From: a virus
IMG/VR virus record: IMGVR_UViG_3300050175_000080
Location: 1-37,376 of that record
Length of the DNA: 37,376 bases
Reading direction: 5' to 3' (one strand)
Part shown: positions 1 through 37,376 of the stretch, piece after piece
Position numbering within the stretch: position 1 is the first letter of the stretch
Layout: every line of letters starts with the position of its first letter
Program-made: the position numbers and the translations under genes
The notes under the pieces: generated by a model
What the model was told of the DNA's origin: nothing
The model's input: the letters and a program-made list of their open reading frames with translations, nothing else
Databases searched by the model: none

Positions 1-121
1 CAGAATGTAAGGCCAATGGCTATTTTTTGCACGGAATAGCCTGCCCTTTAATAATTTTGTTGCCAACGATAGATACAGCCGTTTTTTTGCCAGGATCAAC
101 CGATTCGATTTTAAAATCAAA
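1..121. repeat. Left copy of 121-bp terminal direct repeat
   Basis: Bases 1-121 are identical to the last 121 bases of the window. An exact overlap of this kind is what a circular or circularly permuted molecule gives when assembled as a line. It is more likely an assembly overlap than a physical phage end, because a gene crosses it: the 120-aa lipoprotein gene begins inside the repeat, and the 158-aa gene starting at 496 ends inside it. Joining the ends gives about 37,255 bp. Confidence 0.93.
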
Positions 122-14296: not shown

Positions 14297-16327
14297 CTAA
14301 AAATTAGACATCCGACCAACAGCGTCTAGGCGTGCCTTTTCAATTTCGGCTTCAGCTTTGACAATTTCAGCATGAGACCGCTCTAGGCTTGCCTTTTCTT
14401 TGGCGTCTGCTTCTTCCATGCCAAGCTGGAACTTGGACGCACTTTCTAGCTCTTCCATTTGCTGTTTAGCCTTCTTGAGTTCCAGTTCTACCCGCTTGAG
14501 TTCCAGTTCTTCTTGTTGAATAGCTAGTTTTTGTTGCTGCCCTTGGAGTTTCATTTGATGCTCTTGCTGGACTTGCTGTTGTGCTGCCCCTTGCATTTGT
14601 TGTTGCTGCTGTTGGTTCTGCTCACCCATTTGTTCTATTTGACGCATGTCATCTGATTGCATGAGCTTGTACATCTGTGGATTAGAGTAAGCAATAAATT
14701 TGTTAAATACATCTAACAATCCAGGCAAGTTAGGTATTTCCATAGCTTCCATCATCATTGGAGCCATAAGAACTTTCATCTGATCAGGAGCAGATTTGTA
14801 GATTTCAATCATCATTTGAAGCGTGCGCTCTTTCTGAATCGCAAAGGCAGCACCGACCTGAATAGAGATATGATAAGCATTAGTATCGAACTCATCATCA
14901 TTGAAATTAAGTCCTTCCTGATCATCGCTGTTAATACTGAAAGCATCTTTGCCAGAGATGATTTCATTAGGGGCGACATATACTTTGGGTATCATTTCTT
15001 TCAGCACATCCCCCAATTTTTCAATCGCCATTAGCATTGGGTGCAAGTAAAAGTAAATCGGCAGATTGCCTTGAGTGATTTGCATGGATTGGGTTTGGCT
15101 AGATATTTGAGGGGTAGAGTTACCTTGAGTGGCCTCATATCTTCCGAGCGTACTATCAACCTGCGCCATGTTTTCTTGGTACATTTTTAAAAGCGTCATA
15201 GGCACTTCTTCGGCTGGCCATCGAATGGGTCGATTATTGGGGTCGCTCAAGTCCATTATGATGTTAGCTGGCTCCATTGGATTTTTAAGCTTGTTCATGG
15301 TGGCGTCTGGTAAGTCTTTTGGCCAGATAGTTGTGGGTTTACGCATGTAAAGCACAGACGCGCAAAGCTGTGCTAACATGATATTCTGAAACCGCTGGAT
15401 GCCGTGAGTTTCATAGCCGTATGAAATCGGATAGTACCGACCTGCAATGATTGTGTGATAACCTTGACACGCAATAAGTGGAAATGAGTGGATAGTTAAT
15501 TCTTTCTCTTCAAGAATTTCTACACCTGAAAGCTTATAAGACATGATTTTGCTAGGGGTTACTTCACGTTCCTGTACAATTGCCTCTCCAGGTGGAAGCA
15601 CATCCTTATCAGTAAGCACTAAGCCCGAAGTCGTGAGATACTGTTTAAACTTTTTGCCTTGAACTTTCCTAAAATGATGCGCTATCACAATTTGATTATC
15701 GTCCTCGCTATTCATCCAAGTATCAGTGATGCCAGCTTCATATCTTTCAAAATCGAGTGGGGCTGCTTTTGGATATTCGGCCTTAAAAGCTGCCTTTGAC
15801 ATCCGACATAGATACCCCATAAATTCGCCATCTTGTTTGGTAATGTGAGTTGCTGCGGGGTCAAAATAGAAGTTTTCAAAACCAATCGGATCAATGCGTA
15901 TTTTTTGTTCAAAGCCTCCATTCGGATCGACATAATCATTATAGACATACAGCGCACTATTCATCCCTGTCCTAAGCAGCGTATCATAGACATCTACAAA
16001 TGCCGACTTCCCGTCTTTTAAAATCATCTCGATTAATGCTTGATAGGTTTTGACTGCCTTTTCTGACGCTCCCTTTTTCCCTTTCACTTCCAGTGCGGGC
16101 ACATTGGCAGCGAACTCGGCAACCGCTGTCTTGATATGCTTAGCAATGATGTTTTGTTGTACCTTGGGCATTTTCATTTTCTTCAGTACTTGGACATCTT
16201 CCAAAGACCATTGAGATTGGCCGTAGCCAAAAGATCGTTGTTCAGACGCATCGTCTAACGGCTCGCTAAACAGGTTGTAATAAGTTTCTATCTGGTTACT
16301 TAAGTCATCAAATCGTGTGCTACTCAT
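14297..16327 (-). CDS. Portal protein, P22 gp1-like
   Basis: The dodecameric portal forms the DNA entry channel at one head vertex. At 676 aa it is close to P22 portal (725 aa). The N-terminal 400 residues show the expected pattern: NIIAKHIKTAVAEFAANVP, a crown/wing region with DPIGFENFYFDPAATH, and a clip/stem region GIQRFQNIMLAQL. The C-terminal 120 residues are almost pure coiled coil rich in Gln, Glu and Lys, matching the P22 barrel. The ATG overlaps the terL stop as ATGA. Confidence 0.9.
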   Translation of the reverse strand: MSSTRFDDLSNQIETYYNLFSEPLDDASEQRSFGYGQSQWSLEDVQVLKKMKMPKVQQNIIAKHIKTAVAEFAANVPALEVKGKKGASEKAVKTYQALIEMILKDGKSAFVDVYDTLLRTGMNSALYVYNDYVDPNGGFEQKIRIDPIGFENFYFDPAATHITKQDGEFMGYLCRMSKAAFKAEYPKAAPLDFERYEAGITDTWMNSEDDNQIVIAHHFRKVQGKKFKQYLTTSGLVLTDKDVLPPGEAIVQEREVTPSKIMSYKLSGVEILEEKELTIHSFPLIACQGYHTIIAGRYYPISYGYETHGIQRFQNIMLAQLCASVLYMRKPTTIWPKDLPDATMNKLKNPMEPANIIMDLSDPNNRPIRWPAEEVPMTLLKMYQENMAQVDSTLGRYEATQGNSTPQISSQTQSMQITQGNLPIYFYLHPMLMAIEKLGDVLKEMIPKVYVAPNEIISGKDAFSINSDDQEGLNFNDDEFDTNAYHISIQVGAAFAIQKERTLQMMIEIYKSAPDQMKVLMAPMMMEAMEIPNLPGLLDVFNKFIAYSNPQMYKLMQSDDMRQIEQMGEQNQQQQQQMQGAAQQQVQQEHQMKLQGQQQKLAIQQEELELKRVELELKKAKQQMEELESASKFQLGMEEADAKEKASLERSHAEIVKAEAEIEKARLDAVGRMSNF

Positions 16328-17943
16328 TGCATATATGCCTCTTGGCTATTGTAGAAGTTATTTAGGTTGACGCCCTGCTCACCTTTCGGAATAAGCATCT
16401 TGCCAGACTCCAATAATATCACACCAGCCGACAAAACATCTAAAAGGTCATCGTGAGCAGAGAAAGGGAACTTCGTTAATTCCTCATTGATGATCACGGC
16501 TACTAGATCATACCATTGTTTTGTTACGGTGTAGCGTGGCAGTGATTCAGGGAACAGGATTTTATGTTGCGTAAAGTAAGGCTCAAGCTTCATGATTCTG
16601 GTTTCTTTTGCGCCCTGCGGTGTAAGCTTGTGAAACTTGTTAGCAAAGTAATGGCCTTCTCGGTTCATCGCTTCCTTGAAGTGGAAAAGATCGCTACATA
16701 GTCCTGTATCTTCATAAAAAATGGCATCGGGCAAATGGGTATTGTATAGCATCTTGACCGCCTCCCAGCGTTGAGTTGGGTTAAGTCTGTCGCGCAATCC
16801 GTCTATTAATATCACGTTACCGCTAAGGTCGATGCCTAAGACCACCATTGCCGTGAAGTCAGTCTTTTTACTTTTCCCGCTTGCGGGGTCACAGATCAAG
16901 TATCGATTCATGGCGGAGAAATTTGTCATGTGATGGGTAACGATATCTTTTTTGTCCAGCGTCAAGGCAGATTCTGCCAAGGGTATTTGTAGGTATTGAG
17001 AGGACCAGGTAAGTGAGCCTTGTTCACGTCTGATTTTGCGCAACTCTGTCGCCGTCTTTAGCCAGCCTTCACCATCGCGTTTGCTTTGGTCAATAAAGGG
17101 GTTATAGATGCGTGGGGTGGCTGCTTCCCGTTCGATGATTGTGCTGTAAGTATCATCCAAGTGCTGGCGCGTTCCTATGTATCTAACTGTCCCATTTCTG
17201 CTAGTCAGGTTAAGGGACATTTCCCATGCTCGCGTTGCTTTGTACATACTGTATCGAGTTAAGGCTTGATCAGGTGAAAGCATGTCGTCATACACACAGA
17301 TGTCAAAGTGTTTAGAGGTTGGCTGACCTTCGACCACTCCCCACGCTTCGATAGTGCACTCTTTGGGGTTGCCCTTGCGCTTGACGATGATTCCTCTATC
17401 CAGCGACCACTTCGGCGAGTCCTTGGACGGGTCATCGTACAGGATGTCGGAAAATAACGCCTTCATGGCTTCGTTCCGCTCAAACTCCCTTTTAATTTGA
17501 TCAAGAAAGGCTTTAGCAATGGGCGCGGTGAAGCTAAAAATAGCGATGGTCTTTTCGCCCGTGTGCGCCCCTTCGCCATGTGAGCGCAAGATATCGAAAA
17601 TTGTCATGCCAAAGGTGATGATGGTTGACTTGTAATGATCGCGCGCCCAAAGGTCGATGAAACCATCTGGGGCTGCTTGTACCTCTCTAGCACGCTCAAG
17701 ACAGCCTTTCTGTAGCATGTCCTTACGCTCACAAAGGACTGCCAGCATTAAGAATAGGTCGGTACGAAATAGCTCTCGCGCTTCGTGGATATCGCTTACG
17801 TTCCGTAGTTTCTGTGCGAGTTCGTCAGAGAAGGGCTGGACAATATCCGCGTGCCTCTGTAGGTATTCTTCTACATCAAAGTACGAAGAGTGCATGAGGG
17901 TTTGTAAGCGTTCGTAGTCTTTTTTAAGGCGTTGGAGCGACAT
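16324..17943 (-). CDS. Terminase large subunit (packaging ATPase/nuclease)
   Basis: The 539-aa motor pumps DNA into the prohead and cuts the concatemer. The ATPase half has a deviant Walker A, RDHYKST (residues 101-107), and Walker B, ICVYDD (215-220), followed by an SRNGTVRYIGTRQ coupling region. The nuclease half has acidic positions in LICDPASGK (Asp 352), IFYEDTG (Glu 411) and AHDDLLD near the C-terminus. The start overlaps the small-subunit stop as TAATG. Gene order and size suit a headful-packaging podovirus. Confidence 0.95.
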   Translation of the reverse strand: MSLQRLKKDYERLQTLMHSSYFDVEEYLQRHADIVQPFSDELAQKLRNVSDIHEARELFRTDLFLMLAVLCERKDMLQKGCLERAREVQAAPDGFIDLWARDHYKSTIITFGMTIFDILRSHGEGAHTGEKTIAIFSFTAPIAKAFLDQIKREFERNEAMKALFSDILYDDPSKDSPKWSLDRGIIVKRKGNPKECTIEAWGVVEGQPTSKHFDICVYDDMLSPDQALTRYSMYKATRAWEMSLNLTSRNGTVRYIGTRQHLDDTYSTIIEREAATPRIYNPFIDQSKRDGEGWLKTATELRKIRREQGSLTWSSQYLQIPLAESALTLDKKDIVTHHMTNFSAMNRYLICDPASGKSKKTDFTAMVVLGIDLSGNVILIDGLRDRLNPTQRWEAVKMLYNTHLPDAIFYEDTGLCSDLFHFKEAMNREGHYFANKFHKLTPQGAKETRIMKLEPYFTQHKILFPESLPRYTVTKQWYDLVAVIINEELTKFPFSAHDDLLDVLSAGVILLESGKMLIPKGEQGVNLNNFYNSQEAYMQ

Positions 17944-18554
17944 TATACAGGGATGGCTTGTTTCTTCGGCTTCTCTGCACGCTCACAGCGTCCAGGGGCT
18001 TTTGTCATCTTTTCTTGCTTGGCTTCTAGTGCTTTGAGTTCTTTTTGCATATCGCCTATGACCTGATCTCCTTCCCCGCCACGAATACGCTGGATAAGTA
18101 CTTGATATTCAAAGGAATTAATCGTTCCTTGGGCTAGGGCGTCATCAACAACCTTCATTTTGTTATCAATTCCTTCATGCTCTGCAAGATTAAACGTGTG
18201 TATTCTGCGTCCATATCCGTACATCTTGTTTAAGACATCTACGCACTGGGCTACAGAGGATGCCTGCTGACGCTCTACACCTATGTCGATAGCTTCCATA
18301 AGCTTTTTCGTACAGTACGCTGGTAACCCGTCCATGTGTGACTCGATATCCCACCTGATCGATGCTATGTACTGCCTAATAGCTGCCTGACTTAAAAGGT
18401 GGCGTCCCATCTGTTGGGCACTCGGCAGATCAGTCGTATCATAGCTAGCAAAAACCGCCTGCGCCGCATCATCTTTCGTTACATAGGCGCGGCAAAAATT
18501 GCGTTGCTTTTGTGTAAGAACTTTGACCTTATCGTATGTAGCTTTTTCCGACAT
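17943..18554 (-). CDS. Terminase small subunit
   Basis: The 203-aa protein would recognise the packaging site and pass DNA to TerL. It opens with LTQKQRNFCRAYV, a helix typical of terminase small subunits (as in the Terminase_2 family). The sequence after it (DAAQAVFASYDT, then MGRHLLSQAAIRQYI) matches a helix-turn-helix followed by the conserved ----L--L----I/V-- region. The C-terminal 40 residues are charged (Lys/Glu) and probably contact TerL. It lies directly upstream of terL. Confidence 0.88.
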   Translation of the reverse strand: MSEKATYDKVKVLTQKQRNFCRAYVTKDDAAQAVFASYDTTDLPSAQQMGRHLLSQAAIRQYIASIRWDIESHMDGLPAYCTKKLMEAIDIGVERQQASSVAQCVDVLNKMYGYGRRIHTFNLAEHEGIDNKMKVVDDALAQGTINSFEYQVLIQRIRGGEGDQVIGDMQKELKALEAKQEKMTKAPGRCERAEKPKKQAIPV

Positions 18555-19366: not shown

Positions 19367-19666
19367 ATGGCTTACATACAGGTAAAAATACTAGGGGAAA
19401 AAATCCCTTTTGAATTGACCGAAAGCCCATCTTACGACTGGAATGGTGAGCATTGGAGGTGGGGGGGTGAGTATTCCCCTTTTACGCGGGAAGACATTAA
19501 GCATTTTATTAAAAAACGCCGTGATGACTGGGAAAGTGGAAAAATACAACCACTCGCTAAAAAGTATCGCCCTTGGAATGAATATACCGCCCAAGAAAAA
19601 AGGGACTTTATAGTGCGAGATATACAGATTAATACCTGCTATAACTTCCGTCCTTTTATTTATTAA
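19367..19666 (+). CDS. Hypothetical early protein, 99 aa
   Basis: Soluble, aromatic-rich protein with WNGEHWRWGGEYSPF in the first third and a basic IKKRRDDW helix in the middle; no Cys-based metal site. An ATGGAGA leader precedes it, but here the upstream ATG is out of frame with the gene. That argues that the GGAGA, not the upstream ATG, is functional in this whole family of leaders. I recognise no family. Confidence 0.65.
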   Translation: MAYIQVKILGEKIPFELTESPSYDWNGEHWRWGGEYSPFTREDIKHFIKKRRDDWESGKIQPLAKKYRPWNEYTAQEKRDFIVRDIQINTCYNFRPFIY

Positions 19667-19704
19667 ATTTTAGGACGGCATTATTAACCAAAGGAAACTA
19701 CATC

Positions 19705-19953
19705 ATGAAACAACCATCCCATTACTACGAAAAGCTAACCGAAATTATGACAGGCTCCCGCGATAAGAGTGAACGCGAAGAATTAGAGGTACTTTTTGAA
19801 AAAGCCCTAAAAAAGAAGAAAGCGGACTACATAAAAAGCTTATCACCAGCTGAATTAGAACAGCGATTAAGAGATGAGTGGGGGCTATCAGGGCGACAAG
19901 CATCTTGTATCGCCGACAAACAGAGATTTCTATGTAGCGCGATAGAAGGCTAA
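19705..19953 (+). CDS. Hypothetical early protein, 82 aa
   Basis: Small helical protein, highly charged (SEREELEVLFEKALKKKK at about residues 22-39), with an LSPAELEQRLRDEWGLS segment resembling a helix-hairpin DNA- or protein-contact motif, and two Cys near the C-terminus. It follows leader-element copy 1, in which AAGGAAAC replaces GGAGA, so the ribosome site differs from the other copies. No family recognised. Confidence 0.65.
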   Translation: MKQPSHYYEKLTEIMTGSRDKSEREELEVLFEKALKKKKADYIKSLSPAELEQRLRDEWGLSGRQASCIADKQRFLCSAIEG

Positions 19954-19993
19954 ATTTTAAAGACGGCATTATTAACCAATGGAGAATACGACT

Positions 19994-20422
19994 ATGAAAA
20001 TGATTATCCCACTTACACAGATAAAAGCCCTCGCGGAGCTAAACGCCTTTGATATATGGGTAGCCACACAAATTGATGAAAATGATATTGTTAGAACTTA
20101 TGGTGATCTATCCCTTAATATGCCCAATGATATATTTAACAATCGCATATACAACGAAGACATGATCTACGCGGATTACAAACATACGATATGGGACAGT
20201 TTCTTAGCTTACCAAGAAAAGTATAACAAAAAATATCTTACAGACTTAGCGCACCATCATGATTTTATATACATGCTTTTATCGATAGCTACGCGACATG
20301 CTTTAGAAAAGATGAGCGATAAATTACACACGCACAATCCTAAAGCCTATGCAAAAGTTATGCCCCTTGAATTAATACAAGAAGAATGCAAAAAACGATA
20401 CAAAGAAAAAATTAACCCTTGA
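19994..20422 (+). CDS. Early array paralogue 1 (142 aa), divergent member
   Basis: Most divergent of five tandem paralogues. It keeps the family layout: an N-terminal helix, a central (D)YKHTIWD motif at about 67-73 and a C-terminal helix YMLLSIATRHALEKM at about 100-114. I chose the second ATG of the leader, eight bases after GGAGA; the in-frame ATG upstream is part of the ribosome site. The stop coincides with the -35 of the next promoter. Family similarity is to phage proteins of the DUF7222 type, as I remember them; function unknown. Confidence 0.65.
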   Translation: MKMIIPLTQIKALAELNAFDIWVATQIDENDIVRTYGDLSLNMPNDIFNNRIYNEDMIYADYKHTIWDSFLAYQEKYNKKYLTDLAHHHDFIYMLLSIATRHALEKMSDKLHTHNPKAYAKVMPLELIQEECKKRYKEKINP

Positions 20423-20447
20423 CTTTCTGACGCTTACCATCTATAAT
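20419..20447 (+). promoter_or_regulatory. Internal early promoter P2
   Basis: TTGACT (20419-20424), a 17-base spacer and TATAAT (20442-20447), a better -10 than P1. The spacer repeats the TGACGCTTACCATC of P1. An AT-rich leader of about 90 bases follows, ending in leader-element copy 3. It would boost the last nine genes of the operon. Confidence 0.75.
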
Positions 20448-20542
20448 AGAATTATAAAATAAAAACACCAAACTAAAATAACACAACACAATATAAAATA
20501 AAGGACGGCTTAAATTTTAACTAAACAATGGAGATTACGATT

Positions 20543-20872
20543 ATGACTATGTACGATTATTTAGACAACTTAGAAGGCTATAGCTGGTACACAAACAATA
20601 CTAGTAGGCTAGAAAGTGAACTATTACACACATACGACCTAGAAGATTTTGAAACTATGAAAGAAAACGTGGCAGAAGCAGTTATAGGGTGGGATGACGC
20701 GTTAGGGCTTTACGAGGAACACAAAAATGAAATATGGCAAAAATGTAGCCCATCAATTCAGCTAGAGAACTGCGACTTTCCCGAGTTATTCGAGGTCCGC
20801 ATGACTTATGAAGCCATCGAAAATATTGCTTACAAAGTGATGGAAGAATTAAAAATAGCACAAGCAGCCTAA
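20543..20872 (+). CDS. Early array paralogue 2 (109 aa)
   Basis: Begins MTMYDYLDNLEG. Family motifs: a leading (K/Y)DYL helix; LYEEHKNEIW at about residues 54-63; and a C-terminal helix TYEAIENIAYKVMEEL at about 87-102. It is the shortest of the five because it lacks most of the loop between the LY and C-terminal motifs. The product is acidic, typical of small inhibitors or anti-defence proteins, but this is only a general trend. First gene after promoter P2. Confidence 0.68.
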   Translation: MTMYDYLDNLEGYSWYTNNTSRLESELLHTYDLEDFETMKENVAEAVIGWDDALGLYEEHKNEIWQKCSPSIQLENCDFPELFEVRMTYEAIENIAYKVMEELKIAQAA

Positions 20873-20913
20873 GAACCAAAAGACGGCATTTTTAACCAAT
20901 GGAGAATATGACT

Positions 20914-21309
20914 ATGAATATGAAAGACTACATCATGACCTTAAAAGCGGAATGTCCTGCCTGCTGCAAGTATCAAAAAAACGAGCTAGCAAAATGGCTA
21001 TGCGAAAATTTAGGTTACAAACAATTTGAAGAGATTGCTACGTATGGAGTACGACATGATACGAGCTTAGGAATGCAAGGAGTTAGCGTAGAAAAAGGAC
21101 TTGAGAAATTTTATCATCATTTTAGCAAAGCCATCGCGGAGATATGCGCAATGTATGAGGATGAAACAGGCCGTAAAATTATTGAGAGCACACAGCCACT
21201 AGAGACCGTGAAAAATTACATAGATTTGATGACGTGCGCTGCCATCAGAGAGATTGCCTGCCACTTAATACATCAAATAGACGAAACAAAGAAAAAAATG
21301 ACGGCTTAA
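20914..21309 (+). CDS. Early array paralogue 3 (131 aa)
   Basis: Begins MNMKDYIMTLKAECPACCKY. It is closest to paralogue 4: both have Y-KNELAKW near residue 25, (H/Y)G at about 45, AI-EI--MYED--G in the middle and TCAA(I/M)-EIA--I at the C-terminus. Three Cys in the first 20 residues (CPACC) are not conserved in paralogue 4. Its stop lies within leader-element copy 5, so that leader overlaps coding sequence. Function unknown. Confidence 0.68.
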   Translation: MNMKDYIMTLKAECPACCKYQKNELAKWLCENLGYKQFEEIATYGVRHDTSLGMQGVSVEKGLEKFYHHFSKAIAEICAMYEDETGRKIIESTQPLETVKNYIDLMTCAAIREIACHLIHQIDETKKKMTA

Positions 21310-21338
21310 ATTTTTATTAACCAATGGAGAATACGATT

Positions 21339-21737
21339 ATGACTATTAACATAAACATGACCGACTACTTAAACACCTTAGGCGACAAATGCCCCAAAAG
21401 CTTTCGATACGAAAAAAACGAGCTGGCGAAATGGATGGTTAAAAATCTAACTTATAAACACATAGATGATATAGCCCATCATGGCGCGGAGCGAATGACG
21501 AATGACGCTTGTGAAATAGAGGCAGCAATACTAAACCTTTATTATGACAACAAGGAAGCAATAACAGAAATATCATCTATGTACGAAGACTCACAAGGTC
21601 ATCCAATTATCTGCACGCTAGACGGGATAGACTCTTGGGAAGATTACATCTACTGCTTAACCTGTGCTGCAATGGAAGAAATAGCACAAGACACAATTTA
21701 CAGAATAAACGAAATAAAACAAAAAGAAGGTGCTTAA
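21339..21737 (+). CDS. Early array paralogue 4 (132 aa)
   Basis: Same fold outline as paralogue 3 and the closest pair in the array, so probably the most recent duplication. Conserved blocks are YEKNELAKWM, HHGAE, LYYDNKEAITEISSMYED and LTCAAMEEIA. The HGA followed by an LY-D-(K/E)--I block is what reminds me of DUF7222-type phage proteins. The start follows leader-element copy 5. Confidence 0.68.
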   Translation: MTININMTDYLNTLGDKCPKSFRYEKNELAKWMVKNLTYKHIDDIAHHGAERMTNDACEIEAAILNLYYDNKEAITEISSMYEDSQGHPIICTLDGIDSWEDYIYCLTCAAMEEIAQDTIYRINEIKQKEGA

Positions 21738-21784
21738 CCCAAAAAGACGGCTTAACTTTTAACTAACCAATGGAGACTACGACT

Positions 21785-22162
21785 ATGACTATGAAAATGA
21801 TTGATGCGTTACGAGACATCGACAAAAAATACGGAGAAAAAAACAAATGGAATGAGTTTGAATGGTGGGCATTAAACCACTATAGCTATGACGACTTTAA
21901 AGCTGCTTTTCGGAGTGGGTACGGGGCGATCGCGGTATATTTAACACACGAACATATGGACAAGCTCTACAATTATCATCGAGAAAATATTTGGAAAATT
22001 ATTGAAGATTACGATATGGCAAGACAAAAATCCACGCTAGAAGAATTAGGGAAAATGGACATCACCCACCCGCTTGATTTCAGTTATTGTTTTATGGGTA
22101 CAGCCATAGAGGGACTAGCATATAAAATATTGCCACTTATGGGAAAGCATAGAAAGGGCTAA
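21785..22162 (+). CDS. Early array paralogue 5 (125 aa)
   Basis: Begins MTMKMIDALRDIDKKYG. Family motifs: NEFEWWALNHYSYDDFKAA near residues 23-41, LYNYHRENIWKIIEDY near 61-76 and FMGTAIEGLAYKI near 104-116. The central motif is closest to paralogue 2 (LYEEHKNEIW). It is preceded by leader-element copy 6. Function unknown. Confidence 0.68.
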   Translation: MTMKMIDALRDIDKKYGEKNKWNEFEWWALNHYSYDDFKAAFRSGYGAIAVYLTHEHMDKLYNYHRENIWKIIEDYDMARQKSTLEELGKMDITHPLDFSYCFMGTAIEGLAYKILPLMGKHRKG

Positions 22163-22203
22163 AAATCAAAGACGGCAATTACCAACCAATGGAAAATACA
22201 AAC

Positions 22204-26894: not shown

Positions 26895-26971
26895 TGGTAG
26901 CGGGGGCAGGATTTGAACCTACGACGTCAAGGTTATGAGCCTTGTGAACTGCCAGACTGTTCTACCCCGCG
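26895..26971 (-). tRNA. Initiator-type tRNA-Met (CAU)
   Basis: A 77-nt cloverleaf with encoded CCA. Acceptor CGCGGGG with CCCCGCT leaves positions 1 and 72 as an unpaired C and U; bacterial initiator tRNAs are defined by a 1:72 mismatch (C:A in E. coli). The D stem GAAC/GTTC has the A11:U24 pair typical of initiators. Anticodon loop is CTCATAA. The anticodon stem is CAAGG/CCTTG, so only two of the three consecutive G-C pairs of initiators are present. T arm is GTAGG-TTCAAAT-CCTGC. It would charge Met and may act in initiation, favouring phage mRNAs. Confidence 0.9.
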
Positions 26972-27612: not shown

Positions 27613-27641
27613 GTGCAAGTTCCTTAATAGAGGTTAAATAG

Positions 27642-27670
27642 AGTATAGCGTTTATACATGGTCTTATCAA
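27642..27670 (-). promoter_or_regulatory. Promoter of the moron-like gene
   Basis: Minus strand: TTGATA (27665-27670), a 17-base spacer and TATACT (27642-27647). The -10 region GCTATACTCT is identical to that of the promoter at the other end of the gene. Confidence 0.72.
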
Positions 27671-27730
27671 ATATTCTTATTATCCAAATTTCTTTTTTAT
27701 ATATAGATATTCTTAGAGACTAGATTATAC

Positions 27731-27817
27731 AGGACACTTAATAGCCTAGTCCCAGGACACTTAATTTTTTGGAGGGTAGTTTATGCACAAGTTATTCACA
27801 TGGCGAGGACACTTAAT
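27731..27817. repeat. Three AGGACACTTAAT direct repeats (iteron-like)
   Basis: Exact 12-base copies at 27731-27742, 27754-27765 and 27806-27817, all in the same direction. The first two starts are 23 bases apart (about two helical turns); the third lies beyond the DnaA boxes. A partial match, GTGTACTTAAAT, is at 27931-27942. Candidate initiator binding sites. Confidence 0.75.
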
Positions 27818-27849
27818 TTCTTTCCTTTGGTCGGTGCTTGATTTTGGGA

Positions 27850-27900
27850 GGGGTATAAGGGGTACAACCAGAGGGGTATAAGAGGTATAAGGGGTAAAAT
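27850..27900. repeat. Tandem GGGGTATAAG-type repeats
   Basis: GGGGTATAAG (27850-27859 and 27873-27882), GGGGTACAAC (27859-27868), AGGTATAAG (27883-27891) and GGGGTAAAAT (from 27891) make five related units of 9-10 bases between the DnaA boxes and the initiator gene. Confidence 0.7.
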
Positions 27901-27973
27901 GTAAAGAATACGGACAAAAAGCGTGTTGAAGTGTACTTAAATAATGCGTGGGGAAAATTGGAGCCGAATTTAA

Positions 27974-28831
27974 CTATGTGAGGATTGGGTATTTCTCGTC
28001 AGTTTTGGCTTTGACTGTCTCGAACGGTAAGCCATGATCCATCAAGTGCTTGGAGTAGGCTATGCGCTCTTCGCTGCGCTTCACCCGTTGATCGTGGGTT
28101 GTCTTGGCAGCGACACGCTTATAAAGCGGTCGAGGGGGTGGCGCAGCAGCCTTAGGTGTTGGTGCGACTACGGCAGCTGGTGCAGGCTCGTTTTTGCATA
28201 GAGCGCTTTTTATCATTGAGGCGAGTCTTCCCTGATTTCGCTTGCAAGTTTCTTTTTCAGCTTGTGACTCATAGAGCGGGGCTGATTGAGCCTTCTTCTG
28301 CTTGGCTAAGCTTTTGCGTTTGTAATGCTGGGCGGTTTCAAGAGAGGCATTTGATATGCGAAGGTCGTAGAAGAAGGTTCGGGCAATCCGAATCAATCGC
28401 TGACTAACCCACTTACCACCCACCTTAGCCCGTCTGTAGTGGACATAGAGATAACCTGCTTTGATCATGTCTTTGATCGCGCGATAAGCTCTTTTGCCTC
28501 TAACACCAGCCTTCTGACAGATGTAGGTTGCTTGAGCAGGGAGCGTCTCTCCATTGTCCATTGGTGTGCCAACCTGCAAATCCTCTAAGTTGAGGTGAGA
28601 AACCAGCACTTGCCCCACCAGACTGATGCTTTCACGGCGCTCCGAGCGCTGGGCGTGCGCTTCAGAATTGATATGACGCAAAACAGGGAGATACTTATCA
28701 GGAGTATAATAAAAGGATTCAAGCGCCTTATGACAGCGCTTGATAAAATGAGGCAAGCTGCCTTTGGATTTCAAGAACCTTGGGTTGAGCGGGTCATGCC
28801 CACAAAGATTTCCAGCAGTTGTGCTCGTCAT
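27974..28831 (-). CDS. Plasmid-type replication initiator (RepA, IncFII-like)
   Basis: The 285-aa protein would bind the adjacent origin and start theta replication. The N-terminal DPLNPRFLKSKGSLPHFIKR echoes the NPNPVF...GTLKFCEKL opening of IncFII RepA. A winged-helix part follows (QATYICQKAGVRGKRAYRAI, then KDMIKAGYLYVHYRR), like the RATRAL...LGLITYQ region of that family. The C-terminal third is basic and Ala/Pro-rich, a probable DNA-binding tail. The ribosome site is weak and the leader is about 215 bases, as in plasmids with antisense copy control. Family call from memory; initiator function is more certain than subgroup. Confidence 0.68.
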   Translation of the reverse strand: MTSTTAGNLCGHDPLNPRFLKSKGSLPHFIKRCHKALESFYYTPDKYLPVLRHINSEAHAQRSERRESISLVGQVLVSHLNLEDLQVGTPMDNGETLPAQATYICQKAGVRGKRAYRAIKDMIKAGYLYVHYRRAKVGGKWVSQRLIRIARTFFYDLRISNASLETAQHYKRKSLAKQKKAQSAPLYESQAEKETCKRNQGRLASMIKSALCKNEPAPAAVVAPTPKAAAPPPRPLYKRVAAKTTHDQRVKRSEERIAYSKHLMDHGLPFETVKAKTDEKYPILT

Positions 28832-29052
28832 AATTTTTAATTATACCTTGAACCTTGCAGAAAAACACCCCCTTTAACACCTAATTCCTAAAGCTCGTAC
28901 CCACCAGATGGAAGGAAGCACTAAAGGCATGAGAAAGGCCTTATGTATTCTTCTGTTCCCGAATATGCGTCCTTGTACCCTAGACTGGAGAACACCAGCC
29001 ACGCACACCATACGGAGACAGTTCGGGCACAATCGACGACTTCGGTAATAAT
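28832..29052 (-). promoter_or_regulatory. Long leader of the replication initiator, with possible leader peptide
   Basis: Between the promoter and the initiator ATG lie about 215 transcribed bases. One 45-codon frame (28874-29011, ATG start, poor ribosome site) ends about 43 bases before the initiator, and an AGGC/GCCT inverted repeat is present near 28927-28943. IncFII replicons use such leaders (leader peptide plus antisense RNA) to set copy number. I found no antisense promoter by eye. Confidence 0.4.
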
Positions 29053-29082: not shown

Positions 29083-29259
29083 CCCCTGTCTCGCAAAAAG
29101 ATATTATCGCCTTTTATCAATCAGTTAAGTAGACGTATTGACAGACACCCCCCTAGCTAGTGGCGCGTAGAATGGCTTTTGCGCTCCGCTAAGGTGGTGG
29201 TGGAATCTGCACGCTCCCCTAAAGTACTTAACGCTTTCACAAAATGAAACAACCCATTT

Positions 29260-29308
29260 CGTAGCTTTCGTAGCTTTCGTATCAAAAGTTCGTAGCTTTC
29301 GTATCAAA
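29260..29308. repeat. Nonamer repeat block CGTAGCTTT / CGTATCAAA
   Basis: CGTAGCTTT at 29260-29268, 29269-29277 and 29291-29299; CGTATCAAA at 29278-29286 and 29300-29308. The second nonamer is also inside the 21-base repeat at 3179-3199. Two unlinked non-coding loci of one genome thus share a repeat vocabulary of 9-base units. Confidence 0.8.
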
Positions 29309-30606: not shown

Positions 30607-30847
30607 AGAACTGAAGAGAATCCTACTAAAATTGATGATAAGAATAAGAGCCGATGATATTACAATCCATCAATGTTGGTGGCCATCTGATGTGGCTAGT
30701 ACTTTTGACAAGTGTGGCATTTATTCTTTAGTGGCGCGTACCCATAAAAATAGCGAATATTATAGACAAGTTATTAGGTCTATTATAGGAAGCTTAAAAG
30801 AATTTGATTTAACCAAGGAGACAGAAAATGATACTACCAAAACATAA
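30596..30847 (+). CDS. Hypothetical protein, 83 aa
   Basis: Starts MKNEELKRILLKLMIRIR, a basic amphipathic helix, then HQCWWPSDVAS and a helical end. GGAGGGGAAAG precedes the ATG. It overlaps the exonuclease gene by 20 bases, so it is translated with it and may be a partner. No family recognised. Confidence 0.62.
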   Translation: MKNEELKRILLKLMIRIRADDITIHQCWWPSDVASTFDKCGIYSLVARTHKNSEYYRQVIRSIIGSLKEFDLTKETENDTTKT

Positions 30848-31736
30848 AGAAGAGGACTTTGATGAGTTCCGCAGAAAAGGCCTGTGCGGTTCTGACATTG
30901 CAGGCATATGCGGGGTGAGCAAATGGGTAACTGCTTTGGATGTTTACAAGCGCATCAAAGAGGGGACTAAGTTTGGGCCTAGCGATGAAACAAGCGCCTA
31001 TTTCGGGCGCCAAATGGAAGATGTGATTGTTTCTTGCTATTGTGATAAGCGGGAGGTTAAAGTTAGACAGCACGCGCAGATTATTCACGACAAATATCCT
31101 TTTATTCGTGGCAATACCGATGGGTTATTGGATGCCCCTTTTGTTCTGGTTGAAGCTAAAAATATAGGGCCATCTGCTATGCGCGAATGGAAGCTGGGGG
31201 ATAAATGGATAGTGCCAGCTAAGTATCGCTTCCAATGTTTTCACTATTCCAACATCTTGCAGCCTGAACGAATTGATGTGGCTGTGCTATTTTGCGGGAA
31301 TAAGCTAGAAATCATCACGCTTGAAAGAAATCTGAAATTTGAAAAAGCGATTGAGAATAAATGTATTGACTGGTGGGAAAAGCACATCATTAAAAATTGT
31401 GCGCCTAAGCCTACAAGAGTTTCCGACATTGACCGCTATGTAAAAATAATTCCAGAGAGTACAATAGAGATAACTGATGAGATACAACAAAAAATTGAGC
31501 GTATAAAAGAATTGAATCCTTGCGTAAAAGAACTGAAAGAACTTAAAGACGATATTAAGTTATTCATGGGGCCTCATCAACACTTAATGTGCAAGGGAAA
31601 AGTTGTAGGAACATTCAAAGAGTTTCAAGTAAACCGGTTTAACATGCAGAGACTTAAACAAGAAAATCGGCATTTCTTTAATCAGTTGCAAGACGATTAT
31701 TATGACGAAACAACAAGTAAGAGGTTAAGAGTATGA
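30828..31736 (+). CDS. YqaJ-type viral exonuclease
   Basis: The 302-aa member of the YqaJ/lambda-exo PD-(D/E)XK family would resect 5' strands of linear DNA so that RecT can anneal them. Motifs: GSDIAGICGVSKW (residues 21-33), GRQMEDVI with its Glu, GNTDGLLD giving the catalytic Asp, and LVEAKN giving the Glu and Lys. The length is typical. GGAGACAG precedes the ATG, and RecT follows three genes later. Together they can recircularise terminally redundant packaged DNA, the role Erf plays in P22. Confidence 0.88.
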   Translation: MILPKHKEEDFDEFRRKGLCGSDIAGICGVSKWVTALDVYKRIKEGTKFGPSDETSAYFGRQMEDVIVSCYCDKREVKVRQHAQIIHDKYPFIRGNTDGLLDAPFVLVEAKNIGPSAMREWKLGDKWIVPAKYRFQCFHYSNILQPERIDVAVLFCGNKLEIITLERNLKFEKAIENKCIDWWEKHIIKNCAPKPTRVSDIDRYVKIIPESTIEITDEIQQKIERIKELNPCVKELKELKDDIKLFMGPHQHLMCKGKVVGTFKEFQVNRFNMQRLKQENRHFFNQLQDDYYDETTSKRLRV

Positions 31737-32279: not shown

Positions 32280-32482
32280 AGCGATGCCCCTGGTGCTATC
32301 GACTCAAGCAATGGGCGATCAAGAAATGCTGTCCGAAGCCGAAGCCTTTTCCTACGGAAGAGCTATTTGAGCTAAGGCAAGATATAGGAAATTTGAGCGA
32401 ACACGTTAACCGGCGTCTCAGCATGATGTGGACGAAGGTTGATAAAATTATTTCACAAGGAGAAACCAATGACAATGACTAA
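32276..32482 (+). CDS. Cys-rich small protein, 68 aa
   Basis: Begins MKRCPWCYRLKQWAIKKCCP: CPWC followed eleven residues later by CC could bind metal, then a Pro-rich linker and a coiled-coil helix. It overlaps both neighbours (ATGA at the start, 14 bases into recT). AAGGAGAAAG precedes the ATG. No family recognised. Confidence 0.62.
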   Translation: MKRCPWCYRLKQWAIKKCCPKPKPFPTEELFELRQDIGNLSEHVNRRLSMMWTKVDKIISQGETNDND

Positions 32483-33245
32483 AGAACAAAAAGCCTTAAC
32501 CCCCTTAGCAACTATTTCTAATAAGCTTCGGGAAAAGGATTTCGCCGAAAAGATATTGAAAGCGATCCCTGAACAAACGGCATCCTCTTTTCCTGAAAAG
32601 ATTGCAACGCATGTCATGATGGAGATATCGGAAAATTCAGCACTAGCCAACTGTAAATGGAAATCTATTGCTAAGTGCGTGTTAGAGTGTTCCGCTTTGG
32701 GATTATTTCCTTCAAAGTTGCTAGGGCATATTTACTTAGTGCCTTTCAAAGACCAAGCGACCATCATAGTTGGGTATAAAGGGATTATTCAGCTATTTTT
32801 GAGAGACCCGAAAGTCTCGCGAGTCAAAGCTAAAGTGGTGCGCTCCCATGATGAGTTTAAAGTGATAGAAGGCACTGAGGATAAAATCATTCATAACCCA
32901 AACCTAAAAGAAAGGGGAGAAATAACCCATGTCTATGCTATCGTCTTTTACACGGATGGGAGCAATCAGTTTGAATGGATGGATAGAGCGGAAATAGATG
33001 AGGCAAAAAACCAAGCCAAAACACAAAAATTCTGGAAGCCTTATTTTAAGCAAATGGCACTTAAGACAGTTGTCAGAAGGCTAGATAAATATCTTCCGTT
33101 CAATGCTCTCTATGAAAAAGCATTAGAAATCGAGCACGAAACAGAAATTGACCCGGATGAAGGCTCAATCCTAGACGGCGAATACAGGGAAACGCAGTCC
33201 GATGAAGCATTGATCAACCTACTGGAGGAGGGGCGTGATGATTAA
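32469..33245 (+). CDS. recT: RecT-family single-strand annealing protein
   Basis: The 258-aa protein anneals complementary single strands made by the exonuclease. Family hallmarks: KCVLECSALGLFPSKLLGHI, then YLVPFKDQATIIVGYKGIIQLFLR in two halves at about residues 90-115, and KPYFKQMALKTVVRRLDKYLP near 195-215. The C-terminus is acidic, as in other RecT proteins. The start at 32469 follows AAGGAGAAAC. Length is normal for the family. Confidence 0.92.
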   Translation: MTMTKEQKALTPLATISNKLREKDFAEKILKAIPEQTASSFPEKIATHVMMEISENSALANCKWKSIAKCVLECSALGLFPSKLLGHIYLVPFKDQATIIVGYKGIIQLFLRDPKVSRVKAKVVRSHDEFKVIEGTEDKIIHNPNLKERGEITHVYAIVFYTDGSNQFEWMDRAEIDEAKNQAKTQKFWKPYFKQMALKTVVRRLDKYLPFNALYEKALEIEHETEIDPDEGSILDGEYRETQSDEALINLLEEGRDD

Positions 33246-34933: not shown

Positions 34934-34951
34934 AAGAAAGTGAGAAACATT

Positions 34952-35818
34952 ATGAGTTATACCATTAAGGGAAAATATTTCCCTGACCACTATACATTGA
35001 TAAAAGATATTCATAAAAAATATGGGAGTTGGGCAGAAATAGAAAGACAAACAGGGGTATCAGTCAGGAAATTTGGCGCAAAAACGCAGCGACACCAGCC
35101 GATGAGATGGCATTTATATCGCCCTCTATGGCTTAATTATTATAATGAAAATATTTCTTTTCCTCCTCTTCATCATTTAATAAAGCAATTACTTCAAATA
35201 TATAGATTGAAAGATATTACAGAAATAACGGGCATAATCCCACAAACTCTTTCTCTTATAAGAAAACAACAACAACAAACAACTTATTATGAAAATTATT
35301 TAAAAATATACCAATTATATGAAGAAAATAAAGGAGATATATTGGCACTTCCAGTCTCTACTTATTCGCCAATCATCTCTACAAAACGATTAATAAAATT
35401 TAGCGAGAGAAAGGGATTTCCACCCCCATCCTTTTTAATTAAAAAGATAAAGAAAGATAAAGGGGGTTCATACCGAAAACTAGCCAACTCAATAGAAATA
35501 TCTCGTTGTGTTGTAATGCGAATTGTCTTGAATGGTTGCGAAAGTGTGTCTTGTAAAACTTATGTAAAATTATTAAAAGGCGCCAATATTAAATCTCCTT
35601 TCCCAAACCTTTCGTTACATATGCTGTTAGATTTTCTATGCGAAAAGCATGGATCAATTGAAGGCGTAGCTCGAAATCTTAAACTTAATAATTCAAACAT
35701 AAGGAATTGGCATCTAAGGGATTACCAAGCAAGCAATATTTCTTATTTTAAATATCTTTATCTCTATTTTACTTACCAAGCGCATCATGATGAGTCTTCT
35801 AAAAAAGAAAGAACCTGA
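34952..35818 (+). CDS. Large regulator-like protein with four HTH-type repeats
   Basis: The 288-aa, strongly basic product reads as four related units of about 55-70 residues. Each has a helix, a short HTH-like pair, and an aromatic YxxYLKLY-type helix. The recognisable HTH parts are IHKKYGSWAEIERQTGVSV, LKDITEITGIIPQTLSLIRK, GGSYRKLANSIEISRCVVMR and KHGSIEGVARNLKLNNSNIR. Such an array could bind a long operator or several repeats. As last gene of the operon it may control late genes. A GTG four codons earlier is an alternative start. Confidence 0.65.
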   Translation: MSYTIKGKYFPDHYTLIKDIHKKYGSWAEIERQTGVSVRKFGAKTQRHQPMRWHLYRPLWLNYYNENISFPPLHHLIKQLLQIYRLKDITEITGIIPQTLSLIRKQQQQTTYYENYLKIYQLYEENKGDILALPVSTYSPIISTKRLIKFSERKGFPPPSFLIKKIKKDKGGSYRKLANSIEISRCVVMRIVLNGCESVSCKTYVKLLKGANIKSPFPNLSLHMLLDFLCEKHGSIEGVARNLKLNNSNIRNWHLRDYQASNISYFKYLYLYFTYQAHHDESSKKERT

Positions 35819-36114
35819 ATCATATTCGGATCATTCGCCTTAATCCATGTCGTAGGGATACGGTAAACTATATATCCCAGAGAGGCTGCCAGATTATATT
35901 TCTCGCAGTCTTTCTCATAGCCTGAGCCTCTGGTATGTCGCCCACCGGTATAGATGGCTCCCTCTACTTCAATAAGGATTTTCTTGGAAAGGATAGCAAA
36001 GTCAGAGCGAAAGCGTCTGGGAGGAGAAAAACGATATTCTCGCTCAAATGAAATACCTTTTTCTTTTAACAATGCAGCTAGAATATCTTCATAAACAGAA
36101 AGTGATTTGATCAT
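35785..36114 (-). CDS. PD-(D/E)XK endonuclease domain protein, 109 aa
   Basis: Motifs RFRSDFAI (Asp), ILIEVEGAIYTGGRHTRGSG (Glu-x-Glu) and YEKDCEKYNLAASLGYIVYRI match a compact phage endonuclease family with a restriction-like fold. The length is complete for that family. It overlaps the Dam gene stop by four bases and converges on the HTH-array gene with a 34-base overlap. Pairing with a methylase suggests modification plus cleavage, or resolution of DNA branches; specificity is unknown. Confidence 0.78.
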   Translation of the reverse strand: MIKSLSVYEDILAALLKEKGISFEREYRFSPPRRFRSDFAILSKKILIEVEGAIYTGGRHTRGSGYEKDCEKYNLAASLGYIVYRIPTTWIKANDPNMIQVLSFLEDSS

Positions 36115-36932
36115 GCCATACCCCTCAATATAACATCTTCTCCAGTGCGTGTCTTTAAATTAGAACTTATATTCCTGCGTGTACTAACAATTTCTATATC
36201 AAAATCCTCATAAAGCTCATGCACTAAAGGATGATTAGAATTGGTTAGCAAAACATAGCATCCTATTTTTCGTAAGCGTTTTACTTCCGAAGCTAGTTCT
36301 ATATGATCTTCTTCATAGAACTGTTCTTTTGTGTATCCCGTAAAATTAGCATATTTTGAGATAGGCAAATAAGGAGGGTCAAGAAAGATAAAATCCCCTC
36401 GCTTTGCAGTCTTACGCAATATATCTTTATAATCACCATAAATAATTTGGGTTCCTTTCAGTACATCAGCAGCCGCTAATAAAACATCAATTTGGCATAT
36501 ATTAGGTTTTTTGTAACGGCCAAAAGGAACATTAAAACCCCCCTTCTTATTCACTCGATACAATCCATTGTAGCATGTTCGATTAAGGTATATGGTTCTT
36601 GCTGCAGCGAAGTAGTTATTTAAATCTTCAAACACCATCGATCTTATTTTGTAGTAATATTCTTCAGTATTTTCAAAATTCTTAAGATACTTAATAACCC
36701 TATCAACACCAGAAGAAATTGATTCATAAACGTTAATAAGCTCAGGATTCAAATCTCCGATAATTCCTGTATGAGGATGAACGGAAAAAAACATTGCCCC
36801 ACCACCTATGAATGGTTCAATATATTTTCCAAACTTCTTAGGAGCTTTTTTCATCAACTCGGGAAGTAATTGGGTCTTCCCACCAGCCCATTTCAAAAAC
36901 GGTTTGGCATTGCGCTCCATTAGGTTAATCAT
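36111..36932 (-). CDS. dam: Dam-family DNA adenine N6-methyltransferase
   Basis: The 273-aa D12-class enzyme moves a methyl group from S-adenosylmethionine to adenine. Motifs: FLKWAGGKTQLLPEL (residues 12-26), EPFIGGGAMFF (motif I, cofactor) and DPPYLPISKYANFTGY (motif IV, catalytic). GATC is the usual target of close relatives, but the target here is not shown. The start overlaps the lipoprotein stop by eight bases; a second ATG four codons later is possible. It may shield phage DNA from restriction or affect DnaA-dependent initiation. Confidence 0.93.
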   Translation of the reverse strand: MINLMERNAKPFLKWAGGKTQLLPELMKKAPKKFGKYIEPFIGGGAMFFSVHPHTGIIGDLNPELINVYESISSGVDRVIKYLKNFENTEEYYYKIRSMVFEDLNNYFAAARTIYLNRTCYNGLYRVNKKGGFNVPFGRYKKPNICQIDVLLAAADVLKGTQIIYGDYKDILRKTAKRGDFIFLDPPYLPISKYANFTGYTKEQFYEEDHIELASEVKRLRKIGCYVLLTNSNHPLVHELYEDFDIEIVSTRRNISSNLKTRTGEDVILRGMA

Positions 36933-37287
36933 GTTCTACGTGGAACTTTTCCTGTCGCTTCTTATGAAGCTTGTATCTTCGATAGATTTCGCAGGGTGGG
37001 TCAATCATCCAGCCAATTAAAGCCAATGGCCAACCGACCATGAGAAGCCAAATAACTGACCAGGGGATAGTTGTAATCATCACTTGATTAGCAGCTTTGA
37101 CTTCAAGCAAGTCTCTGCCTGCTATCTCCCCTAGATTGTGCTTGGCATGGCTATTATCACCAATTTTGGTCTCAATTTGAAGCGGCGTTTTTTTAAGTGG
37201 CAGCACTTTTTTACCCGCAAGCCATCCCACCCCAGTGCACGCTGAGAGAACGAGGCAGAATGTAAGGCCAATGGCTATTTTTTGCAC
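36925..37287 (-). CDS. Lipoprotein with C-terminal membrane span (u-spanin-like candidate)
   Basis: The 120-aa product starts at GTG; the ribosome site is AAAGGGCAGG. Residues 1-17 are a lipoprotein signal ending in the lipobox LSAC. Residues 18-75 are periplasmic with an IETKIGDNSHAKHN motif. IPWSVIWLLMVGWPLALIGW (about 74-93) is a membrane span before a basic tail. A lipid anchor at one end and a span at the other is the layout of one-protein spanins such as T1 gp11, which join both membranes at lysis. The 58-residue periplasmic part is short for that. The gene crosses the circular join. Confidence 0.68.
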   Translation of the reverse strand: MQKIAIGLTFCLVLSACTGVGWLAGKKVLPLKKTPLQIETKIGDNSHAKHNLGEIAGRDLLEVKAANQVMITTIPWSVIWLLMVGWPLALIGWMIDPPCEIYRRYKLHKKRQEKFHVEHD

Positions 37288-37376
37288 GGAATAGCCTGCC
37301 CTTTAATAATTTTGTTGCCAACGATAGATACAGCCGTTTTTTTGCCAGGATCAACCGATTCGATTTTAAAATCAAA
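37256..37376. repeat. Right copy of 121-bp terminal direct repeat
   Basis: Identical to bases 1-121; see the left copy. The last 89 bases repeat the end of the 158-aa gene. Confidence 0.93.

Follow-up and report, generated by a model that had tools for sequence, protein, structure and literature searches.

The window analysed here, a whole virus record of 37,376 bases, carries two sets of genes. In its left half, a block of terminase and portal genes lies on the minus strand, whilst the right half contains small early-type genes, the region around a replication initiator gene (repA), and genes for a RecE-like exonuclease, a RecT-family protein, a Dam-type methyltransferase and a DUF559-like nuclease. 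The two ends share an exact direct repeat (1..121 = 37256-37376), as in a circular or terminally redundant assembly, such that the unit is 37,255 bp long once the repeat is counted once. A sequence-only reading of this DNA had taken the end overlap to fit a circular molecule, and had suggested maintenance as such. The 121-bp repeat is real and fits a circular assembly; however, it is no evidence for a plasmid, as plasmids, circularly permuted headful virion DNA and true short terminal repeats look alike, and packaged phage DNA would appear identical. Relatives at the DNA level are few: plasmid records were matched over only about 61 bp, in the region of a DUF3800-V-type RNA described below, and phage records in the tRNA region only. 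This is a tRNA-Met (CAT) gene at 26895-26971 (minus strand), the sole DNA-level phage match of the right half (MT835748, from human faeces, 84%).

One virion gene (14297..16327, minus strand) encodes a P22-type portal protein (PF16510, E 6e-64), which has 20-25% identity to podovirus portals and only a marginal match to solved structures by sequence (E 0.01). It is adjoined by genes for the terminase large subunit (16324..17943, minus strand), assigned to phrog_38 by sequence comparison, and the terminase small subunit (17943..18554, minus strand), assigned by a family match to Terminase_2. A 902-aa protein weakly matches the head closure protein Hc3 (PHROG 578, E 8e-5; Thalassomonas phage BA3, E 4e-5), whilst the putative coat, scaffold and ejection proteins (445, 248, 578 and 766 aa) had no matches, nor did the coat have any meaningful sequence match among solved structures. 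Hence the proposal that the head and injection genes follow the order of P22 is upheld for the portal and, weakly, for the 902-aa protein; however, the large terminase is not close to that of P22, and the remaining assignments depend on position only. Similar portals (22-24% identity) are found in the podoviruses BA3 and ctfPj964 (MW202557). BA3, which has a weak Hc3 match like that of the 902-aa protein, has the gene order terS-terL-portal-scaffold-coat and carries RecE and Erf; MW202557, unlike the window, has an annotated DNA polymerase and helicase of its own.

Outside the virion block, the gene-like open reading frames of more than 160 aa encode the RecE-like/YqaJ exonuclease (30828..31736, plus strand) and the RecT-family annealing protein (32439..33245, plus strand), both identified by family matches, together with RepA, the Dam-type methyltransferase, a 292-aa HTH-like protein and a 162-aa protein with no family. 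As originally reported, no integrase, phage polymerase, primase or helicase could be recognised in the window. In the non-virion half, the open reading frames reach 302 aa at most, and those of large size correspond to the RecE-like, RecT, Dam, RepA and HTH proteins, so that neither a polymerase nor a replicative helicase could be accommodated. It would be very improbable for this to be an integrating temperate phage with an integrase too diverged to recognise, using RepA only after excision. The tRNA-Met gene, which is close to the replicon, might in principle serve as an attachment-type sequence; however, the integrase family PF00589 was unmatched in the window and, outside the virion block, only the open reading frame of the 292-aa HTH protein (34940-35818) is both unassigned and as large as a recombinase.

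The repA gene (27974..28831, minus strand) encodes a 285-aa protein identified as a replication initiator through homology, the motifs GNxCGHxPxxPRF and RSERRE, and its predicted structure. Searches with tblastn matched 186 plasmid records (best E 1e-16), including those of Legionella, Spongiibacter, Methylocaldum (annotated as RepA), Nitrosococcus (annotated as IncFII RepA family), Pseudomonas and Aeromonas, as well as nine Aeromonas phages, bearing out the suggestion of a RepA-like initiator. An alignment-based search with the family added 24 viral contigs; these are distant relatives, no close relative of the window RepA itself being found among viral contigs. Relatives were also present at 46 loci in bacterial genomes, every one with a gammaproteobacterial record title. 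Homology to the family of alignment A1, including the motifs GNxCGHxPxxPR and RSERRE, spans the N-terminal part and the winged helix, and residues G7, N8, C10, H12, P14, P17, R62-E64, R66-E67, G88, P90, R114 and R117 are invariant in 13 aligned relatives. In a phylogenetic tree, the window RepA, which has an identity of 34% or less among the tree rows, sits on a very long branch (2.93) amid plasmid sequences, with an uncertain placement. By sequence comparison, then, the 285-aa protein is a diverged relative of gammaproteobacterial plasmid RepA initiators.

The predicted structure of RepA has a helical N-terminal part, one winged helix at around residues 63-150, in keeping with the winged-helix region originally proposed, and a separate C-terminal helical pair attached through a disordered linker. 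The model retrieved generic winged-helix matches only, including a plasmid Rep-DNA complex (Z 6.5), and these therefore support the fold rather than the family; comparison by sequence with solved structures gave no meaningful match. The protein had also been described as IncFII-like from its opening, and the LNPRF motif is indeed present at residues 15-19. The NCBIfam model RepA_IncFII_LM (NF040977) matches the window RepA below threshold (E 1e-4; 21.9 bits, the cut-off being 70) and seven of the 13 aligned relatives, with a best E of 1e-9. However, no Pfam family matches the protein, IncFII_repA (PF02387) included, and none of the curated families reaches its cut-off. Membership of IncFII was hence rejected as too specific. 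A match of the protein to a non-replication family was looked for and not found, as were an integrase or lytic replisome encoded elsewhere in the window.

Immediately downstream of repA lies a set of repeats with the appearance of an origin, as the sequence-only reading had anticipated. Three exact copies of TTAAGTGTC are present on the repA strand 157, 209 and 232 nt past the repA stop codon, and the rest of the genome has none; the corresponding GGACACTTAAT copies are at 27732, 27755 and 27807, a number reached in none of 100 shuffles. These putative iterons occupy, on the minus strand, 27807..27817 (iteron 1), 27755..27765 (iteron 2, 52 bp from the first) and 27732..27742 (iteron 3, 23 bp from the second, a conserved spacing). 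Between them are two perfect DnaA boxes on the plus strand, TTATGCACA at 27781..27789 and TTATTCACA at 27792..27800. There are four DnaA boxes across the whole window, a count reached in 13 of 100 shuffles and not significant alone; what counts is the location of these two within the origin. Relatives, those of Legionella and Aeromonas among them, also have such boxes after repA. A 91-bp stretch of 23% GC (27640..27730), within the lowest 0.6% of windows, lies immediately past the last iteron and is a candidate DNA unwinding element. A repeat search further found, at 27848..27899 in the interval from repA to the iterons, three direct repeats of the GAGGGGTATAAG type.

The TTAAGTGTC motif was first noticed in the window and then checked in 38 separate loci from bacterial genomes, making the test independent of the window; this set does include related loci, for example at least seven from Legionella. 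At 32 of these loci, the 400 nt that follow repA contain at least two copies, allowing one mismatch, on the same strand as repA. Exact copies number 57 in the 15.2 kb after repA, compared with two in 535 kb of flanking sequence, whilst 73 of 76 copies are on the repA strand and 22 or 23 bp is the prevailing spacing. The window fits the family pattern of two or more same-strand copies 130-290 nt after repA and 22-23 bp apart. Plasmid replicons of Legionella, Nitrosococcus, Methylococcales, Halomonadaceae and Pseudomonas likewise consist of RepA followed by TTAAGTGTC iterons 22-23 bp apart, one example being pNWAT01, annotated 'IncFII RepA protein family'; these differ from the window in that their RepA proteins are only 25-39% identical to its own and they have no relative of its portal. 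A Methylobacter plasmid has the identical 52/23 layout (at 194, 246 and 269), with one mismatch per copy. Neither a clade of viral contigs (L028-L044) nor Aeromonas phage Ahp2 had the motif after repA, and so it marks only part of the Rep family. In a literature search for TTAAGTGTC in connection with RepA or iterons, none of the papers listed contained it. The comparative evidence is therefore strong that RepA and the downstream TTAAGTGTC region represent an initiator with its cognate origin, to which it would be expected to bind. This initiator-origin pairing is conserved across the Gammaproteobacteria, and the iterons provide a sequence test for replicons of this type in other phages and plasmids.

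Given the homology of RepA, the conserved origin and the failure to find a polymerase or helicase, the phage most likely replicates from this RepA-oriR replicon by means of the host replisome. RepA, as a winged-helix initiator, would bind the TTAAGTGTC iterons that follow its gene, and DnaA would assist at the adjoining boxes; the AT-rich stretch would then be opened and the host replisome loaded for theta replication. Recombination of the RecE/RecT type could subsequently make the concatemers needed for packaging. The same replicon could also allow the genome to persist from one infection to the next as a circular plasmid. We are confident in the replicon itself, which homology, motif conservation and gene content support, whilst binding, opening, the theta mode and any prophage state are what we infer. 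It is accordingly highly probable that the genome is that of a complete tailed phage with a P22-type portal and a plasmid-type RepA-oriR replication module, a judgement that applies to the replicon and not to the lifestyle. In this phage, a plasmid replicon stands in for recognisable phage replication genes. This pairing with a P22-type portal looks unusual on present comparisons: the portal family was found in none of 16 other RepA-bearing viral records, several of which are fragments. The portal relatives BA3 and MW202557 lack a RepA of this family, phage matches to which were from Aeromonas only.

The window thus combines phage virion genes and plasmid replication genes on one molecule, as is expected of a phage-plasmid, and it had been proposed to be one. 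The plasmid-type replicon and its adjacent origin are strongly supported; the plasmid maintenance that the proposal also entails is not. Lysogens in which the genome persists as a circular plasmid under RepA control are nonetheless given slightly less than an even chance. There is no integrase, two small Cro/CI-type HTH genes are present, and two complete circular Aeromonas plasmids of similar size, NZ_CP121813 (38,948 bp) and NZ_CP149128 (37,925 bp), carry, besides a Rep of the same family, genes for terminase, portal or capsid, and tail. After repA, both have a DnaA box and a motif that differs from TTAAGTGTC by a single mismatch, comparable to those in the window. Hence phage-plasmids with such a Rep replicon very probably exist. 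However, these two differ from the window in having other virion types, with no P22 portal, and in carrying ParA and tyrosine recombinases. We compared gene content across 22 records, comprising the window, 16 RepA-bearing viral contigs, the two Aeromonas plasmids, two phages and one portal relative. ParA was found in 16 and a tyrosine recombinase in 14, with the window and Aeromonas phage AhyVDH1 having neither. Partition and multimer-resolution functions, which are usual for a phage-plasmid if not strictly required, were not found in the window; neither were a toxin-antitoxin system, a recognised S24-type repressor or a repressor circuit, and no plasmid record contained a detectable relative of the portal. 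Lacking ParA, a tyrosine recombinase and a recognised S24-type repressor, the genome offers no support for stable plasmid maintenance.

The nine Aeromonas phages with RepA relatives are Ahp2, AhyVDH1, 3, 32, Asp37, 59.1 and 13/14/85AhydR10PP. Ahp2, 3, 32, Asp37 and 59.1 are myophages, with cos ends in 3, 32, Asp37 and 59.1 (PMC5539321). Unlike the window, Ahp2 carries ParA and an integrase, and phages related to it have been predicted to be temperate from the integrase gene (PMC5539321); however, a PCR test of ten resistant colonies detected no Ahp2 lysogens (PMC8001559). As this RepA family occurs in phages isolated as lytic, such as Ahp2, RepA is informative about the mode of DNA copying and not about lifestyle. 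It is hence quite plausible, at just under evens, that the window represents an obligately lytic phage using a plasmid-type RepA-oriR for vegetative replication only. This would resemble AhyVDH1, a lake water phage that has RepA and, as in the window, neither ParA nor an integrase, although the RepA proteins of Ahp2 and AhyVDH1 form a separate clade. Against a lytic lifestyle are the two Cro/CI-like genes and the observation that most carriers of the RepA family are plasmids or par-bearing elements. Overall, a phage-plasmid and a lytic phage with a plasmid-type replicon appear about equally likely. Should plasmid maintenance prove true, phage-plasmids would be extended to one with a P22-type-portal virion and to one without partition genes. 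The viral contigs L028-L044, many of them 37-45 kb, have a related RepA and in most cases ParA and a tyrosine recombinase, with no TTAAGTGTC iterons; on their gene content they are candidate phage-plasmids with a diverged origin.

Upstream of repA, Rfam was searched for an antisense RNA opposite the leader, such as the CopA of R1-type replication control. The only RNAs detected there were two on the repA strand, with matches to DUF3800 RNA families (RF02968 and RF02964). A DUF3800-IX RNA (28965..29037, minus strand; 47.7 bits, gathering score 36.8) is followed, 10 nt away, by a DUF3800-V-like RNA (28859..28954, minus strand), which at 31.2 bits falls below its gathering score of 37.4 and has E values of 2e-6 to 8e-5 in small searches. 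The tandem ends 28 nt before repA, and a perfect TATAAT with a weak -35 sequence can be read by eye just upstream of it. The stability of the whole leader is not unusual (z -0.7). The structure is kept among aligned IX copies, both partners having changed in 15 of the 23 predicted pairs. In a sample of 369 genomes from the class of a Stutzerimonas genome, IX was present in three and V in six, never both in one. A convergent DUF3800 gene abuts the RNA at most IX and V loci examined elsewhere (five of six for IX, five of seven for V), whereas the window has no match to such a gene (PF12686). A 40.5-kb viral contig (L019) also has a DUF3800-IX RNA (168-238) with no DUF3800 gene, at a position near the contig end where the gene may have been cut off. 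Neither RNA was found in any of the RepA relatives searched, and hence they look like a feature of the window phage and not of the replicon family.

To our knowledge, the DUF3800 RNA families are known only by their gene neighbour. One speculative explanation, which we consider rather unlikely, is that the orphan IX and V RNAs are either phage-borne mimics acting in trans on the DUF3800 proteins of hosts, plasmids or rival prophages, or a regulatory leader recruited by repA. The former would be analogous, in principle, to phage pseudo-antitoxin RNAs. Either would give the DUF3800 RNA families their first function, and the position of orphan copies beside repA provides a handle on RNAs of uncharacterised function.

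Several further repeats and genes were observed in the right half. In the interval separating the repA leader from the rightward early genes, CGTAGCTTTCGTA occurs three times at 29258-29308, a number reached in none of 100 shuffles, and is a possible operator. At 19665-22199 (plus strand), around seven copies of a 37-58 nt repeat (GACGGC...TTAACCAATGGAGAATACGACTATGA) extend over the ribosome binding site and start of successive small genes. The 'MENTTM' start common to the encoded small proteins may consequently derive from the DNA repeat, with the true starts a few codons later. Phage HTH regulators are matched weakly at several different places along the 292-aa protein (34940-35818, plus strand), which possibly consists of repeated HTH units. 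Finally, at 35785-36932 (minus strand), the gene for the Dam-type methyltransferase adjoins that for the DUF559/MTES_1575-like nuclease, the two perhaps forming a small restriction-modification pair.
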